Notes under the pieces: generated by a model | Database searches by the model: none | What the model was told of the DNA's origin: nothing | Seen by the model: only the letters and a program-made list of their open reading frames with translations | Position numbers and translations under genes: made by a program | Shown: positions 4,191 through 63,612 of the stretch, piece after piece | Numbering within the stretch: position 1 is the stretch's first letter | Layout of the letters: each line of letters opens with the position of its first letter | Source of the DNA: Thiothrix unzii | Lineage (GTDB): Bacteria > Pseudomonadota > Gammaproteobacteria > Thiotrichales > Thiotrichaceae | Assembly (NCBI RefSeq): GCF_017901175.1 | Contig: NZ_CP072793.1 | Coordinates: forward strand, 3,286,001 to 3,350,000 | DNA: 64,000 nt | Reading direction: 5' to 3'

Positions 4191-5264
<1,074 letters not shown>

Positions 5265-5270
5265 GGTTCA

Positions 5271-5300
5271 AGAGGTGGGCGGGGAATCCCTCGCCCTCTT
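5271..5300 (+). terminator. Intercistronic hairpin between gap and pgk
   Basis: AGAGGTGGGCGGGGA and TCCCTCGCCCTCT form an interrupted GC-rich stem 7 bases beyond the gap stop. The following bases (TTTCCCAG) are only weakly T-rich, so partial termination or mRNA processing is more likely than full stop of transcription. Confidence 0.4.
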
Positions 5301-5371
5301 TCCCAGATCCGTCACATAAATCACCCCGCGCTTTATTTGACTGATTTGATTTCTGCAAGGAGTTCCACCAC

Positions 5372-6553
5372 ATGGCTTTCATCAAAATGACCGATCTGGA
5401 TCTGAAGGGCAAACGTGTTCTGATCCGTTCCGACCTGAACGTTCCTGTCAAAGACGGCAAAGTAACTTCCGACGCACGTATTACTGCTTCAATGGCGACT
5501 ATCAAGTTCGCAATGGATGCGGGTGCAAAAGTCATGGTGACTTCTCACTTGGGTCGTCCGACCGAAGGCGAGTGGTCTGAAGCCGTTTCCCTGAAACCGG
5601 TTGCTGACAATATTGCAGCGCGTTTGGGTTCAGACGTGCGCTTGATCAAGGATTGGGTTGACGGTGGTTTTGACGTGGCTGACGGCGAATTGGTCGTGTT
5701 GGAAAACTGCCGCGTTAACAAAGGCGAAAAGAAAAACGTTGAAGAAACCGCCAAGAAATACGCTGCCCTGTGTGATGTATTCGTGATGGATGCGTTTGGT
5801 ACTGCGCACCGTGCTGAAGCATCAACTTACGGCGTAGGTATGTTTGCCCCAGTCGCAGCCGCTGGCATGTTGCTGACTGAAGAACTGCTGGCGTTGGACA
5901 AAGCATTGGCAAACCCGGCTCGCCCAATGGTGGCTATCGTTGGCGGCTCTAAAGTTTCCACCAAACTGACCGTCTTGGAAGCCTTGTCTAAGAAGTGCGA
6001 ACAGTTGGTTGTCGGCGGTGGTATTGCGAATACTTTCCTGAAAGCCACAGGTCATAACGTCGGTAAGTCTTTGTGCGAAGACGATTTGGTTGACACCGCC
6101 AATGCGCTGATCACCAAAATGACCGCACGCGGCGCAATCATCCCCATCGCGGTTGATGTGGTTTGCGGCAAGAAATTCGACCCAGCCGAACCAGCCGTAT
6201 TGAAAGACGCCAAAGACGTGGCTGACGACGACATGATTTTCGACATCGGCCCCAAGTCTGCGCAAGAACTGGTCGACATTATCATGAACGCTGGCACTGT
6301 CGTCTGGAACGGCCCGGTCGGTGTATTCGAGTTCGACCAATTCGGCGAAGGCACGAAAGCGATTTCAATGGCAATGGCGGAAACCAAAGCCTTCACCTTG
6401 GCAGGCGGCGGCGACACCATCGCAGCGATCCAGAAGTACGACATTTACGACAAAATTTCCTACATCTCCACAGCGGGCGGTGCTTTCCTCGAATACCTCG
6501 AAGGCAAAGTCCTCCCAGCGGTTGCCATGTTGGAAGAACGCGCTAAGGGTTAA
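5372..6553 (+). CDS. pgk: Phosphoglycerate kinase
   Basis: PGK transfers phosphate between 1,3-bisphosphoglycerate and ADP, running in the ATP-consuming direction during CO2 fixation. The 393 residues cover both domains: [19 protein letters not shown] and [10 protein letters not shown] in the substrate domain, and [17 protein letters not shown] and [13 protein letters not shown] in the nucleotide domain. The start has an AAGGAG site. It is the third gene of the tkt-gap-pgk-pyk-fba cluster. Confidence 0.97.
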
Positions 6554-6563
6554 TGACCCTTCC

Positions 6564-6592
6564 GTAGGGGGTGAAAAATATTTCCCCCCTAC
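6564..6592 (+). terminator. Strong hairpin after pgk
   Basis: GTAGGGGGTGAAA pairs with TTTCCCCCCTAC across a four-base loop, 11 bases after the pgk stop. There is no T run after the stem, so it may be a stability or processing element that separates pgk expression from pyk rather than an intrinsic terminator. Confidence 0.45.
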
Positions 6593-6662
6593 AATCCCAC
6601 ACAAATGACATAAAACAAGCATAAACTAAGCACTTTACAGCACACAGTTAATAGGTAATCCA

Positions 6663-8105
6663 TTGAGAAGGACAAAAATTGTAGCGACTATGGGGCCTGC
6701 TACCGATACGCCGGAGGCGATTGAAGCCATTATCCGGGCTGGCGTGAACGTGGTGCGAATGAATTTTTCGCACGGCACGCACGCAGAACACGCGGCACGT
6801 GCGGCTTTGGTGCGTGAGTTAGCGCATAAAGCAGGGCGTATCGTCGGTATTCTCGGCGATCTGCAAGGGCCTAAATTACGTATTTCACGTTTCAAAGACG
6901 GCAAAATTACCCTGAAATCGGGTGATGCCTTCATTTTGGATGCGGATCTTGCCAGCGATGCCGGAACCCAAGAGCGCGTTGGCCTCGGTTACAAAGAGTT
7001 GGTCAATGACGTGAGTGCCGGAGACGAACTCTGGTTGGATGACGGGCGCATTGTGTTGGAAATCGTCGAAGTGCGGGGACAGGAAATCCATACTCGTGCC
7101 ATCAACGGCGGTATTCTCTCCAATAACAAAGGCTTGAATCGGCGCGGCGGTGGCTTGAGTGCCGAAGCCTTGACCGATAAAGACAAGGAAGACATTGCGG
7201 CTGCTGCCAGCATTGGGGTGGATTTCTTGGCAGTGTCATTCCCGCGTTCGGCTGACGACATTCACGAAGCCCGGCGTTTGGCACTGGAAGCCGGTTGCAA
7301 AGCCGCGATCGTTGCCAAAATGGAACGTGCGGAAACGATGGAACCCACCATTCGTGATGAAATCATTCTCGCATCCGACGTGATTATGATTGCTCGCGGC
7401 GACTTGGGCGTGGAAATCGGCGATGCGAAGTTGCCACAGGCGCAAAAATGCCTGATCAGCCGTGCACGTAGCCTGAATCGTGCAGTGATTACTGCTACGC
7501 AAATGATGGAAACCATGACCGACAACCCGATCCCGACGCGGGCGGAAGTCTTCGACGTGGCAAACGCGGTCATGGATGGCACGGATGCAGTGATGCTATC
7601 CGGCGAAACCGCTACCGGCAAACATCCTGCGCTCGTGGTTAAAACGATGGCAGCGATTTGTAAGGAAGCGGAAAATTCCAACGAAACCCGCCGTTCCGGG
7701 CATCGCATGGAAAACCGTTTTGATCGCATCGACGAGGGTATCGCGATGGCGACTATGTACACCGCTAACCACATGGGTGTACGTGCGATTGCAGCACTGA
7801 CCGAATCCGGTGCAACCCCGTTGTGGATGTCGCGGATTCGTTCCGGTATTCCGATTTACGCGCTGACCTCCAATGATGAAGCGGCGCGGCGGGTAAGCAT
7901 GTATCGCGGGGTTTATCCGGTGAAATTGCATGAACCGATGAAAGACCCGAAAATAGCCAACCGTCAAGCGGTCGAGTTGATGATTGAAGAAGGCATCGTC
8001 GAAAACGGTGACTTAGTGATCATTACCAAAGGCGATCTGATGGGCACGAAGGGCGGCACCAATCAGATGAAAATCCTGCGGGTCGGTGAACACGAAAACG
8101 GCTAA
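6663..8105 (+). CDS. pyk: Pyruvate kinase
   Basis: Pyruvate kinase makes pyruvate and ATP from phosphoenolpyruvate. The 480 residues include RRTKIVATMGPATD at the N-terminus, NVVRMNFSHG, the catalytic Lys segment AAIVAKMERAE, MIARGDLGVEIG and ATQMMETM. The start is a TTG codon: an in-frame TAA lies 12 codons upstream with no ATG or GTG between, and the family normally begins MRRTKIVAT, so TTG at 6663 is the only sensible start. A weak AGGT precedes it. A poor start may keep pyruvate kinase low relative to its neighbours. Confidence 0.95.
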   Translation: MRRTKIVATMGPATDTPEAIEAIIRAGVNVVRMNFSHGTHAEHAARAALVRELAHKAGRIVGILGDLQGPKLRISRFKDGKITLKSGDAFILDADLASDAGTQERVGLGYKELVNDVSAGDELWLDDGRIVLEIVEVRGQEIHTRAINGGILSNNKGLNRRGGGLSAEALTDKDKEDIAAAASIGVDFLAVSFPRSADDIHEARRLALEAGCKAAIVAKMERAETMEPTIRDEIILASDVIMIARGDLGVEIGDAKLPQAQKCLISRARSLNRAVITATQMMETMTDNPIPTRAEVFDVANAVMDGTDAVMLSGETATGKHPALVVKTMAAICKEAENSNETRRSGHRMENRFDRIDEGIAMATMYTANHMGVRAIAALTESGATPLWMSRIRSGIPIYALTSNDEAARRVSMYRGVYPVKLHEPMKDPKIANRQAVELMIEEGIVENGDLVIITKGDLMGTKGGTNQMKILRVGEHENG

Positions 8106-58092: not shown

Positions 58093-59978
58093 AACCACTG
58101 TTAAGTGCGTTCGACCTCAATTTGTTGATGGCAGGTAAGCATCATCATGCTTGGAAAATCTTGGGCGCACATCCGCTGGTACTAGAAGGCGTTGAAGGTT
58201 GCCGTTTTGCAGTCTGGGCTCCGGGCGTACAACGTGTGAGCGTGGTCGGCGATTTTAATCAGTGGGACGGGCGTGAACACCCGATGCGTTGTTGCGGGGA
58301 TTCCGGGGTGTGGGAAGTATTTATTCCCGGCTTGCCAAGCGGCGCGGCGTATAAATACGAAATTCTTAACCGTAATGGGCATTTGCTGGTTAAAACCGAC
58401 CCGTATGCCCAGCAAATGTTTTTACGCCCAGAAACCACATCATGCGTTCCGAGCGTAGGTGATTACACTTGGCAAGATGCGCAATGGGTAGCAGCACGCG
58501 CCGAGTTTGATTGGCAACATCGCCCACTCAGCGTTTACGAAGTGCATACCGGTTCTTGGCGCAAACACCCGGACGGGCGTTTTTATTCGTGGGCAGAATT
58601 GACGGAAACGTTGATTCCTTACGTGAAAGATTTGAATTACACCCACATTGAATTGCTCCCCGTAGCGGAACATCCGCTGGATGAATCGTGGGGTTATCAG
58701 GTGTCGGGCTATTACGCACCGACTGCCCGCCACGGTACGGCGGATGAATTTCGTGCTTTTGTGGATGCTTGTCACCAGCAAGGCATTGGGGTGTTGCTGG
58801 ATTGGGTTCCGGCGCATTTCCCGAAAGATGCTTTCGCGCTGGCAAAATTTACCGGCGAACCGCTGTACGAACACGCTGACCCACGCAGGGGCGAACATCA
58901 AGATTGGGGAACGCTGATCTTTGATTTCGGGCGTAATGAGGTGCGTAATTTCCTGATTTCCAACGCGCTGTTCTGGATTGATGAATTCCATATCGACGGG
59001 TTGCGGGTGGATGCGGTGGCTTCGATGCTGTATCTGGATTATTCGCGCAAGGCGGGTGAATGGTTGCCGAATCAGTACGGCGGGCGTGAAAATTTAGAAG
59101 CCATTGCGTTCTTGCGGGAAATGAATACGGTGGTTCATGGCTATTTCCCCGGAGTGCTGACGATTGCGGAAGAATCAACTTCATGGCCTGCGGTATCGCG
59201 TCCGGTGGAGCTGGGCGGTTTAGGTTTTAGCATGAAATGGAATATGGGTTGGATGAACGATAACCTGTCGTACATTGAGCAAAACCCGATTCACCGCAAA
59301 TATCACCATAATCTGCTGACGTTTAGCCAGATGTATGCGTATTCGGAAAACTTTGTGTTGCCGTTGTCGCACGATGAAGTGGTGCATTTAAAGCACAGTA
59401 TGCTGGATAAAATGCCAGGGGATTACTGGCAGGCATTTGCGAATTTGCGCTTGTTTTACGCATGGCATTACGCGCATCCCGGCAAGAAATTGCTGTTTAT
59501 GGGGTCGGAATTCGGGCAATGGGCAGAATGGAACGCCAAGCGTGAACTCGATTGGTCATTGTGCAGTTTTCCGGCACATGACAGCGTGCGCCATTTATTG
59601 CGGGATTTAAACCGGTTGTACCGGGATTTACCGGCGTTGCATCAGTTTGATTTTGACGGGCGCGGCTTTCAGTGGATTGATTGCCATGATTCGGATCAGT
59701 CGGTGCTGAGTTTGGTGCGTCGCGGCGAAACAGCGCAGGATACGGTGGTGATTTTGCTAAACTTTACCCCAGTGCCGCGCTATAACTACCGCATTGGTGT
59801 GCCGGAGGCGGCGAGTTATTGCGAAATTCTGAATACCGATTCGACTTATTATGGCGGTAGTAACTGCGGTAATGCGGGGGCGTTGTCGGTGTTGGCAGAG
59901 CCTTGGATGGGCTTTACGCATTCTGTGGAAGTGACTCTGCCACCGCTTGCCGCCTTGTTCTTATCGAGTGGAGCGTAG
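58089..59978 (+). CDS. glgB: 1,4-alpha-glucan branching enzyme
   Basis: GlgB adds alpha-1,6 branches to glycogen. The 629 residues have a CBM48 domain ([20 protein letters not shown]), the GH13 catalytic domain with [19 protein letters not shown] (nucleophile Asp), [13 protein letters not shown] (Glu) and [11 protein letters not shown] (His-Asp), and a C-terminal all-beta domain. The N1 domain of E. coli GlgB is lacking. ATG 58089 overlaps the malQ stop; the frame continues upstream only as a shadow. glgA should follow directly, but a three-gene cassette is present instead. Confidence 0.96.
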
Positions 59979-60021
59979 ATAATCGGTGTCATTCCATGTT
60001 TTCAAAGGAAATAAAATCATC

Positions 60022-61572
60022 ATGATTGATGAGTCCACGGAAATTGAGGCATCAGAGAATGGGGTTGTCCCAGAGAAACAGCTTACCACTATTCATGAAG
60101 CACGATCCGAGAGTGGTGAACCTGCGGGTGTCGAAGCTGATGATGCTGACGATCTGATTGAGCCATTTGATCCTGATTTGATTTCCATTGAACAGCGTGT
60201 TGTGCCGATGGATACCCTGATTCGGCGTTTGAAGCAAGGTTCTGTTCGTCTCAACCCCAATTTCCAGCGTAAAGAGGTTTGGGATGATGGGCGGCGTAGC
60301 CGTTTGATTGAATCTATTATCCTACGGATTCCTCTGCCGATGTTCTACGTGTCAGCGGATGTGGAAGGACGTTGGGACGTGGTGGATGGCTTGCAACGTT
60401 TGTCTACCATCCGTAATTTTATTTTGGGTGATGAGAACAACGCGAAATTGCGGCTGAAAAAACTGGAGTTTCTGGGGGAACGCTTAAACGGTAAAACGTT
60501 CGATGATATTGATATTAATAGTCCGGCCTATCAGCGGATGATCAATACCATCTTAGAAACAGAAATGCGCTTTACCATTATTAACCCAGGTACGCCAGAA
60601 GAAGTTAAGCGCAATGTTTTCAAGCGATTGAATACTGGTGGTTTACCGTTAACCTCCCAAGAAATACGTCATGCCTTGTATCAGGGGCAAGTAACAGATT
60701 TGCTCGCAACGTTAGCAGAAAGTAAATCTTTTAAGGAAGCGACAGATAACTCTATCAATGATAGTCGGATGGCAGCGCGTGAACTGGTGCTTTATTTCTT
60801 AGCGTTTGCGGTTTTTCCACACTCTGCCTATAAGGGTAATATGGATACATGGTTAAGTAATACCATGCGTGTTATTAACCTAATGCCCAATTTAGAGCAG
60901 TCAAAGCTTATAAAGATATTTGGTAGCCAAGAAAATATCCCTGAGATTAAAGTAAGAAGTATTAAATGCCTGAGTGAGCGTTTTGAACTTGCCATGAGGC
61001 GGGGGCTAATACTGTTTGGGAAATATACGTTCCGTAAATCCTTATCTGTTCGAGGTTATTATCGTACTCCGGTCAATAAAGCATTATTTGAAACATGGGG
61101 AAATATTCTCGCAGAATTAAATCAAGAAGATTTTAATGTATTGCATAGGAATAAGGAGCTTTTAGTGAGAGTATATGATATTCTGTTAAATGGCGATGAT
61201 AGGCTGCGAGAATTGATTGATCCGTTTTTAATAGCAGATTTTGATTTTAAAGAGGAATCTTTAATATATAAAACATCTGATGGAATAATAAAAGAATTTA
61301 ATTTAAAGAAATTGACATTTTTTGTATTTGGAGATGATATAGACTTTATCAGAGTATTCCCTCTGAGAATTCAAGAAACACCTTCAGAGGAAAATGAAAA
61401 AAGAATAGAAAATTATTCATGTCTTTTATTAAATGGACATATAGGGGAGTCACTTTACTCCTCTATCAGCCGCCATGCTTCAAAGGTTGAGAGCGTTAAG
61501 CGTCGTTATATGTATCTTGGTAATCTGGTGAAGAATATCATTACTTATGCAAAGCAGGAGCAAACGGCGTGA
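60022..61572 (+). CDS. DUF262-domain protein (GmrS-like), first gene of a cassette
   Basis: The 516-residue protein has a ParB-like DUF262 fold: LNPNFQRKEVWDDGRRSRLI, ILRIPLPMF, the nucleotide-binding-like DGLQR (122-126), and VFKRLNTGGLPLTSQEIRHA (200-218). DUF262 proteins include GmrS of the GmrSD type IV restriction system, where it provides NTP hydrolysis and sensing. The DUF1524 HNH nuclease half of GmrD is absent from this protein. The C-terminal half is unusually AT-rich: in 61261-61320 only 9 of 60 bases are G or C. ATG 60022 is preferred; a GTG at 59986 is possible. The stop overlaps the next gene as GTGA. Function is inferred. Confidence 0.85.
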   Translation: MIDESTEIEASENGVVPEKQLTTIHEARSESGEPAGVEADDADDLIEPFDPDLISIEQRVVPMDTLIRRLKQGSVRLNPNFQRKEVWDDGRRSRLIESIILRIPLPMFYVSADVEGRWDVVDGLQRLSTIRNFILGDENNAKLRLKKLEFLGERLNGKTFDDIDINSPAYQRMINTILETEMRFTIINPGTPEEVKRNVFKRLNTGGLPLTSQEIRHALYQGQVTDLLATLAESKSFKEATDNSINDSRMAARELVLYFLAFAVFPHSAYKGNMDTWLSNTMRVINLMPNLEQSKLIKIFGSQENIPEIKVRSIKCLSERFELAMRRGLILFGKYTFRKSLSVRGYYRTPVNKALFETWGNILAELNQEDFNVLHRNKELLVRVYDILLNGDDRLRELIDPFLIADFDFKEESLIYKTSDGIIKEFNLKKLTFFVFGDDIDFIRVFPLRIQETPSEENEKRIENYSCLLLNGHIGESLYSSISRHASKVESVKRRYMYLGNLVKNIITYAKQEQTA

Positions 61573-62636
61573 TTAGTGCCATACATTTAAAAGCTTTTAA
61601 ATCTTATCCTGATGCAGAAATTCCTTTTAAGCCACTGACTTTGCTATCGGGTTTGAATAATAGCGGCAAAAGCTCCCTGATTCAGGCGGTGCGGATGTAT
61701 CAACAAGCAGCAAATGGTCAATCGCCGCTGTTAGAACATCATGGTGATGTCAGTGATATGCGTTCACGTTTGTCTTTTCCAAGTGATGCGATTGAAATTA
61801 TGTGCATATTTACGGATGGCACGTCATCGCGTTTTCACTTGAATGATGATGCGTTGGAAAATCCCGAACGTTGCCCCGTCAGTTTTTATGTCAGTGCAGA
61901 CCGTTTGGGGCCACAAACTGTGTTGCCGTTGCGTCGGGCATTTTCGGCACTACCAGACATGGGAGAACAAGGCCGTTATGTGTTGGATGTGTTGGGACGA
62001 TTACGTGATTCACGGATACCTGACACATTGGTGCATCCCAAAGCGCAATCTAAATCATTGCAACATGTTCTGGATGGATGGTTAAGTGAGATTGCCCCCG
62101 GCATCGAGTTTTCATTTGAACCCGATGCAAAAGCGGATGTATCACGGGCAGAGATTGATACATTCCGTCCAGTCAATGTGGGTTTTGGCTTGAGCTATAC
62201 CTTGCCTATTTTGGTAGCGGTTTTGGGTATGGTTGCACAAGCACCTGCTGATGGATGGGTTAATAATTGGGGTGAACGTTGGGATGAGAAGCGGCAATCG
62301 GAAGGGAGATTGGTGATTCTGGAAAATCCAGAGGCTCACTTGCATCCACAGGGGCAGACGGCAATGGGACGTTTATTAGCTTTAGCGGCTGCTTCAGGCG
62401 TGCAGGTATTGGTGGAAACACACAGTGATCACTTGATGGATGGTATTCGACTGGCAGTAAAAGAAGGTTTGCTGGATGCAGATAATGTTGCTTTTCATTA
62501 TCTGACTAAAAATAAGGAGGGAGTGACTGAAGTTAAATCTCCTAAAATCTATCAAAACGGTAAACTGGATTTTTGGCCTGATGGCTTCTTTGATCAAGCC
62601 TTGAAAAACAGTGCATTGTTGGCGAAGCGGGGCTGA
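61569..62636 (+). CDS. AAA/OLD-like ATPase with DUF3696 C-terminus
   Basis: The 355-residue ATPase has the SMC/ABC-like N-terminus MISAIHLKAFKSYPDAEIPF, Walker A GLNNSGKS (28-35), Walker B LVILENPEAHLHP (248-260), an H-loop VETHSDHL (282-289) and DFWPDGFFDQALKNS near the end, the DUF3696 mark. No TOPRIM domain follows, unlike classic OLD nucleases. GTG 61569 overlaps the DUF262 stop by four bases, and the next gene begins 3 bases after its own stop. It is likely to sense or assemble on nucleic acid. Confidence 0.9.
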   Translation: MISAIHLKAFKSYPDAEIPFKPLTLLSGLNNSGKSSLIQAVRMYQQAANGQSPLLEHHGDVSDMRSRLSFPSDAIEIMCIFTDGTSSRFHLNDDALENPERCPVSFYVSADRLGPQTVLPLRRAFSALPDMGEQGRYVLDVLGRLRDSRIPDTLVHPKAQSKSLQHVLDGWLSEIAPGIEFSFEPDAKADVSRAEIDTFRPVNVGFGLSYTLPILVAVLGMVAQAPADGWVNNWGERWDEKRQSEGRLVILENPEAHLHPQGQTAMGRLLALAAASGVQVLVETHSDHLMDGIRLAVKEGLLDADNVAFHYLTKNKEGVTEVKSPKIYQNGKLDFWPDGFFDQALKNSALLAKRG

Positions 62637-62639
62637 TGC

Positions 62640-63548
62640 GTGGATATTAGTTTGTGCTTGAATCCAAACAGCTTCCCCGCTGCTTCTGCTGAGCAGGCTT
62701 ACCAATTATTTGAAGATTCTTGGCAGGGTGTTTTAGCTTTATACCAGAATGGTGATCGTTACCTTCTGTATTTGGATACGCTTTCTAATGATAATTTGCA
62801 TGATTTTTCTTTGGCGGAATCCTTCACTTACGATGATTTCTTGAACCTTTTAATGGCACGAGGAGAGCGGGATCTTCATAACTTTCTAACTCAGTTAGAG
62901 GATAAAAGTCCTGCTTTAGATTATTTAGACACAGAAACACTAGACGATATAGCCAGTTATTCGTTTTATATGCCGAATCATCCTATACCTAGATACGCGG
63001 ACACCTTCTCCTTAGCTTATTTCCTCGATGCTATTTTGCTGAGCATCAACACATCGCCACAATGGGCTAGTCACCAAGTGACAATTGCACGGATAGCGGA
63101 TGATGGGCGTTATATTGATGAGCAACTGGCTTTACACCATATTGCCACTCAGACACATGGGCAGCAATTATTTCAGCAGTTTTCACAGGATGATATTAAA
63201 GCTGTGTGTACTCAAGCGGTGATGACAGTTGAGTTCGTTAGTTGGTATCAAGAGCTTGCTGCTGAAAATAAACGGCGAGTGTTTGATAAGTTTAAGTTGG
63301 CTTGCGAACGCCAGTTTCAGGGAGCAAAACCTTTATTTGATTCACTCATCAATAGTGATGGTATCCGTGAAATACGCTTTAGTGCTTATTCCGGTGGAGC
63401 AATTCGCATCTTGTTCAAGGCGATGAGTGATGCTAAACACGCTATTTTGTTGGGCTTTATTAAGAAAAGTAACAGTGGTGGATATACTGAGAATATCCCT
63501 AAAGCAGAAGCGTTATTTCACCAGTTACAGATGCGAAATAACACATGA
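62640..63548 (+). CDS. Cassette effector candidate with RelE/HigB-like C-terminal domain
   Basis: The 302-residue protein is not recognised as a whole. Residues 1 to about 190 form an unknown, acidic, helix-rich domain (LDDIASYSFYMPNHP; WASHQVTIARIADDGRYIDE). Residues about 198-300 fit the RelE/HigB (Gp49-like) toxin fold: SWYQELAAENKRRVFDKFKL, then GIREIRFSAYSGGAIRILFK and AILLGFIKKS, ending in a helix (KAEALFHQLQ). Such domains are ribosome-dependent or free mRNA nucleases. Its GTG start is 3 bases after the ATPase stop. The RelE assignment comes from pattern reading and is not certain. Confidence 0.72.
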   Translation: MDISLCLNPNSFPAASAEQAYQLFEDSWQGVLALYQNGDRYLLYLDTLSNDNLHDFSLAESFTYDDFLNLLMARGERDLHNFLTQLEDKSPALDYLDTETLDDIASYSFYMPNHPIPRYADTFSLAYFLDAILLSINTSPQWASHQVTIARIADDGRYIDEQLALHHIATQTHGQQLFQQFSQDDIKAVCTQAVMTVEFVSWYQELAAENKRRVFDKFKLACERQFQGAKPLFDSLINSDGIREIRFSAYSGGAIRILFKAMSDAKHAILLGFIKKSNSGGYTENIPKAEALFHQLQMRNNT

Positions 63549-63612
63549 CAGAGCCACTAATTAATTTCTTCTCTAAAACTGTATTTTCAATGAGATTGTA
63601 GAGATCAATGCC

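Follow-up and report, generated by a model that had tools for sequence, protein, structure and literature searches.

The DNA analysed here (the window) is a 64,000-nucleotide stretch of Thiothrix unzii (contig NZ_CP072793.1, positions 3,286,001 to 3,350,000). According to the listing of its open reading frames (ORFs), three same-strand ORFs occupy the gap between the stop codon of glgB (59978) and the ATG of glgA (63613), which is where a preliminary description of this DNA, made from the letters alone, had placed them. The names of the surrounding glycogen genes are that description's and our own reading of the ORFs. The three ORFs encode NsnA, NsnB and NsnC, which we take to make up the antiphage system Menshen. 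The features discussed below are as follows:

59945..63611, strand unassigned: inserted or replaced segment, 3667 bp, compared with 57 bp in the sister genome G001
60022..61572, plus strand: NsnA, 516 amino acids (aa) from an ATG, a DUF262/GmrSD_N protein (ORF, Pfam and PADLOC)
61252..61461, plus strand: core of an AT-rich extra segment in the C-terminal part of NsnA, at about residues 411-480 (alignment comparison)
61569..62636, plus strand: NsnB, 355 aa from a GTG, an SMC/OLD-like ABC ATPase with a C-terminal DUF3696 (ORF, Pfam and PADLOC)
62640..63548, plus strand: NsnC, 302 aa from a GTG, with an N-terminal NsnC domain and a C-terminal HigB/Gp49-type domain (ORF, PADLOC, Pfam and models)
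63222..63545, plus strand: HigB/Gp49-like, RelE-superfamily domain of NsnC, residues 195-302 (Pfam, alignment and profile)

The genes of the trio are tightly coupled to each other, with NsnB overlapping NsnA by 4 nt and NsnC beginning 3 nt past the NsnB stop. The translational coupling previously ascribed to them therefore holds within the trio, but not at its upstream edge, where the NsnA ATG lies 43 nt past the glgB stop without overlap (the NsnA frame also has an alternative GTG opening at 59986).

The preliminary description had recognized a DUF262 protein without its HNH partner, an OLD/DUF3696-like ATPase without TOPRIM, and a third protein with a RelE/HigB-like end, and family searches bear out all three. 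NsnA matched the PADLOC NsnA model over residues 24-508 (4.2e-126), and the one Pfam family found in it was GmrSD_N (DUF262; 8.5e-25), with no HNH/DUF1524 domain detected in the Pfam search. The DUF262/GmrSD_N fold is described in the literature as a ParB/Srx-type NTPase. A VDGLQR motif is located at residues 121-126, and its D122, G123, Q125 and R126 were invariant across the 56 rows of an NsnA alignment. GmrSD_N was present in all 56 rows, and the other families found at E ≤0.01 were IF2_N (two rows), IF2_assoc (one row) and DUF790 (one row). IF2_N, a domain of translation initiation factor IF-2, was fused to the NsnA of two relatives. The NsnA of L122, a member of the Thiotrichaceae (4558-6267), has an N-terminal IF2_N (PF04760, 6.1e-9) together with an IF2-associated region (PF08364, 8.1e-9), and that of L173 (5815-7218) has an N-terminal IF2_N at 4.6e-5, under the cut-off.

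The 3' part of the NsnA gene is AT-rich, as had been noticed earlier (GC content of 0.34 at 60952-61572), and reaches its extreme at 61228-61461 (0.26), because an extra protein segment is encoded there. From alignment position 385 to 482, the NsnA of the window has 98 residues, compared with 13-21 in 54 of the 56 rows, which amounts to about 84 extra residues. The only other long insert (75 aa) was found in L122, one of 55 relatives. The segment is present as a single copy in its own genome.

NsnB matched its PADLOC model over residues 1-351 of 355 (1.1e-95). Pfam assigned AAA_15 (1.8e-22), AAA_21 (1.3e-16) and DUF3696 (5.8e-12) to it, plus other AAA families, and the same search found no TOPRIM domain. 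The protein carries the motifs GLNNSGKS, VILENPE and ETHSDH, the first two of which we take to be Walker A and Walker B, respectively. Unusual forms of NsnB were seen in two relatives. In L122, the closest relative, NsnB (6263-7332) is split into two frames (164 and 202 aa), and this copy may be broken or misassembled. In Candidatus Thiomargarita nelsonii (L134, 6945-8285), the NsnB frame (446 aa) runs into a HigB-like C-end and looks like an ATPase-toxin fusion lacking the NsnC N-domain, for which a deletion or an assembly artefact is possible.

NsnC matched the PADLOC NsnC model PDLC03894 over residues 1-297 of 302 (5.7e-128), and neither PADLOC nor Pfam gave it any match at E ≤1 other than NsnC models and Gp49. 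The Gp49 family (DUF891) was identified in Pfam at residues 202-292, above the cut-off (34.4 bits vs 23.9 bits; 2.3e-8). Residues E244, R246, R256 and K275 were invariant in a 16-row alignment of the window protein, 14 stand-alone Gp49 proteins and locus L033, and a profile of the HigB-like domain matched the solved HigB toxin 6af3 (E 8.5e-4). NsnC is accordingly predicted, from its sequence, to end in a domain of the RelE superfamily. Its N-terminal domain (about residues 1-190) is weakly PIN/VapC-like. The predicted structure of NsnC had block values of the predicted local distance difference test of 63-96 in the N-domain and 35-58 from residue 181 onwards, the poor values perhaps arising because the alignment mixes different C-ends. 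With this weak model, the first Foldseek match was HigB2 (E 0.11, probability 0.72), and no RelE-type chain was among 50 rows of the VIA fold list, the model being weak in its C-part. An RNase fold was supported by fold comparison for the predicted structure of one NsnC relative. Searching PDB sequences with the NsnC C-domain (phmmer) gave no match, and a search of them with profile A3 gave three matches at E ≤5, none of which was a RelE or PIN chain. We consider the sequence-family evidence for a HigB-type C-domain to be the firmer. A small ORF resembling a helix-turn-helix (HTH) antitoxin lies right behind each of 10 inspected stand-alone Gp49 relatives (judged by eye), and HTH families were confirmed by Pfam in 3/3 of such ORFs tested. 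No HTH antitoxin gene lies behind the window NsnC, where the next gene is glgA.

The cassette differs in composition from the operon that surrounds it. GC content at third codon positions (GC3) is 0.366 in NsnA, 0.385 in NsnB and 0.373 in NsnC, compared with 0.526-0.591 in seven neighbors (pgi, glk, glgC, GH57, malQ, glgB and the 5' part of glgA), and this contrast (0.37-0.39 vs 0.53-0.59) marks the trio as foreign. The foreign origin suggested in the preliminary description also finds support in the comparison it proposed of glgB-glgA junctions in relatives lacking the cassette: within the genus, glgA directly follows glgB in 15/15 congeners. The closest of these, G001, has a GlgB that is 99% identical over the 355 residues compared, and its site is empty; alignment with it breaks at 59944, within the final glgB codons, and picks up again at 63612. 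The last glgB codons of the window (59945-59978) differ from those of this nearly identical sister, hence the exchange may have reached the 3' end of glgB. NsnC was present in one of 16 genomes of the genus, namely the window genome, and in two of 63 genomes of the order (window genome included). Across the class, model PDLC03894 had matches in 26 of 369 genomes, at full length only in the window genome; the remaining matches were to the C-part only, except for L010 (N-part with a different C-end). Recent acquisition of the cassette between glgB and glgA is the most likely reading of these results. The locus is a clean case in which a defence cassette has entered a compact metabolic operon while a near-identical sister still shows the site unoccupied. 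No integrase or transposase gene was found among the ORFs between glgB and glgA, no repeats were recognized on inspection of the insertion borders, and promoter- and terminator-like sites were not more frequent than in shuffled sequences.

The three genes also occur together elsewhere, as had been anticipated. Matches to the NsnA model at 1e-10 were found in 68/398 genomes of the phylum, and also in 4/14 control genomes. From a first sample of 80 places (the window's included), 40 others were fetched, and an NsnB match accompanied NsnA in 23 of the 25 fetched places scoring >320 bits (two further such places lie outside the fetched set), but in none of the 15 at ≤259 bits. A second sample, of named genomes, comprised the best 80 of 269 NsnA relatives, picked by NsnA similarity, and shares at least four with the first. 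Here, NsnB adjoins NsnA in 74/80 relatives, with the A-B-C order of the window, and three of the six loci without NsnB have <230 bases of contig remaining. A further ORF follows in 73/80 loci, and is ≥240 aa long in 68/80.

Record titles place the hosts of these relatives in Pseudomonadota, Bacteroidota, Nitrospirota, Chloroflexota, cyanobacteria and others. The inspected relatives lie in contexts other than glycogen metabolism, contrary to what a role confined to that pathway, raised in the preliminary description as a ground for refutation, would predict. For example, in a Paraglaciecola sp. (L123, 2545-13092) the trio sits within a BREX operon, with PglX upstream and PglZ and BrxL downstream. 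In L130 the trio lies about 3 kb from a type I specificity gene, and in L145 a type II methyltransferase is found at a distance of about 1.2 kb. An Acinetobacter plasmid carries the trio behind a BrnT/BrnA pair, and in Phocaeicola vulgatus ATCC 8482 (L153) it lies amid apparent conjugation/transfer genes (judged by eye). Neighboring proteins were chosen by eye from 13 loci, and so give no rate of defence linkage; two of 10 had no match at 1e-10. Searches by peptide patterns in genome and viral contigs confirmed no NsnC relatives, and tblastn with NsnC returned one plasmid record and no phage records. With NsnA as the query, the matches came from 114 plasmid records and 21 phage records, and no match spanned 80% of the protein.

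The C-ends of NsnC vary among relatives. Two variants come from Bacteroidales/Bacteroides records, one with a YoeB toxin domain as its C-end (L192, 8153-9007) and one with a CARF7-DUF2103-like stretch (L193, 2935-3774). Mapped onto an NsnA tree, C-end types require at least six changes (minimum 3, shuffled mean 39.5), which indicates that they mostly track lineage, with few exchanges. This was a quick tree of 91 rows with 26/84 inner branches poorly supported; the labels derive from letter patterns (5/93 NsnCs unlabelled), and some loci appear twice under two ids. With a common N-domain and varied toxin-type C-ends (HigB/Gp49, YoeB and others), NsnC lends itself to the question of how a single sensor/ATPase pair governs several kinds of RNase.

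Taken together, we consider it probable that the cassette is a recently acquired Menshen-type antiphage operon (NsnABC, with a ptuXYZ-like layout) of the HigB/Gp49 subtype, in which NsnA and NsnB restrain NsnC and then release it on infection to cleave mRNA. NsnA, with its DUF262 NTPase fold, would sense or relay a phage-derived signal, and the SMC/OLD-type ATPase NsnB would build an ATP-driven assembly that keeps NsnC inactive until that signal arrives. NsnC may dock through its PIN-like N-terminal domain and, once freed, its C-terminal HigB-type RNase domain would cut translated mRNA in a ribosome-dependent manner, so that growth halts before phage progeny form. Given that NsnC ends in a domain of an RNA-cutting toxin family, the probable effect of the cassette is growth arrest of infected cells. 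A more speculative version, which we regard as a long shot, is that Menshen monitors translation itself, with NsnA positioned near the ribosome or the initiation machinery, where disturbance by a phage would set off the ribosome-dependent HigB/RelE-type RNase. The IF2_N fusions on the NsnA of two relatives look as if a piece of initiation factor had been recruited for docking or as a decoy. On this view, the long NsnA inserts of the window and of L122 could form a sensor surface specific to their lineage.

The same proteins could be arranged in a restriction-like scheme, whereby NsnA (ParB/Srx-type fold) is a nuclease acting on phage DNA, NsnB its motor, and NsnC a backup or accessory effector. 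In type IV restriction enzymes, DUF262 forms the NTPase half, and Gerdes 2025 (PMC11980606) suggests a nuclease function for PtuX. We nonetheless consider this scheme unlikely, as NsnA lacks HNH/DUF1524 and the 56 NsnA rows add only the IF2_N, IF2_assoc and DUF790 families, while NsnC bears a toxin-family domain and most loci retain a long third ORF. That toxin-family domain would equally suit a selfish addiction or plasmid-stability module, with NsnA and NsnB as the antitoxin complex for NsnC, and so would the trio's presence on the Acinetobacter plasmid and amid the apparent transfer genes of P. vulgatus. Its position in a BREX operon argues otherwise, as do the restriction-type genes that lie no more than about 3 kb away at two other loci and the defence label given to the family by PADLOC. 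An addiction module is thus quite unlikely as the explanation, although addiction and defence can coexist.

Two further explanations concern the window copy in particular. It is very unlikely to be a decayed, non-functional remnant: the unusual AT-rich NsnA insert and the absence of the cassette from the other genomes among the 16 of the genus would fit decay, but the three frames are intact, their motifs are kept and the genes remain tightly coupled. A role in glycogen metabolism is extremely improbable, since position inside the operon is the sole point in its favor and it is already contradicted by the 15 congeneric glgB-glgA junctions without the cassette, the other contexts of the inspected relatives and the foreign composition.

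Among known systems, PARIS resembles the cassette in that NsnB also scores against its AriA ATPase models in PADLOC (9.3e-24), and the likeness presumably extends to an ATPase restraining a toxic effector until triggered. The PARIS effector AriB is of the TOPRIM type. Membership of PARIS was rejected, as no AriB-type match was among the NsnC matches at E ≤1 (PADLOC and Pfam) and the cassette has an additional DUF262 component. The NsnC C-domain belongs to the same Pfam family (Gp49) as toxins of HigBA/Gp49 type II toxin-antitoxin modules and keeps their invariant residues. Nonetheless, it is fused behind an NsnC-specific domain, and a HigBA module was rejected because the adjacent gene is glgA rather than an HTH antitoxin. 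GmrSD, BrxU and SspE share with NsnA a DUF262 domain that bears the (V)DGxQR motif described in the literature. GmrSD type IV restriction was rejected since only GmrSD_N was found, with no DUF1524 HNH domain or partner, and the partners of NsnA are instead an ATPase and a Gp49 protein.

The preliminary description had suspected a defence system matching no described one. The defence role stands, but the system is not unmatched, as PADLOC holds models of NsnA, NsnB and NsnC and ptuXYZ has the same layout. Menshen was reportedly described by Millman and colleagues in 2022 as a system made of Nsn genes, presumably in the order A-B-C. The window trio matches all three dedicated PADLOC models nearly full length, with adjacent genes in that order and an NsnC of the HigB/Gp49-ended subtype PDLC03894, and differs in the extra C-terminal segment of NsnA. 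Hence, judged by its sequence, the cassette appears to be one more member of an already described Menshen-type system, of the HigB/Gp49-effector subtype. The window's pair of DUF262 and OLD-type proteins without DUF1524 fits the review by Mariano & Blower 2023, which describes a DUF262 protein lacking DUF1524 with a predicted OLD-type partner; the review mentions an OLD nuclease/TOPRIM component, whereas NsnB has no TOPRIM. In Gerdes 2025 (PMC11980606), where the word "Menshen" does not occur, ptuXYZ comprises a DUF262 protein without DUF1524, a P-loop ATPase, and a third protein with a PIN-like N-domain and a RelE-superfamily (BECR) C-domain. The window cassette has the same three-gene layout, with an NsnC whose N-domain is weakly PIN/VapC-like; the C-domain is called YoeB-related in ptuXYZ, whereas that of the window NsnC is of the Gp49/HigB type. 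The shared layout suggests that the published names Menshen and ptuXYZ may denote one family.
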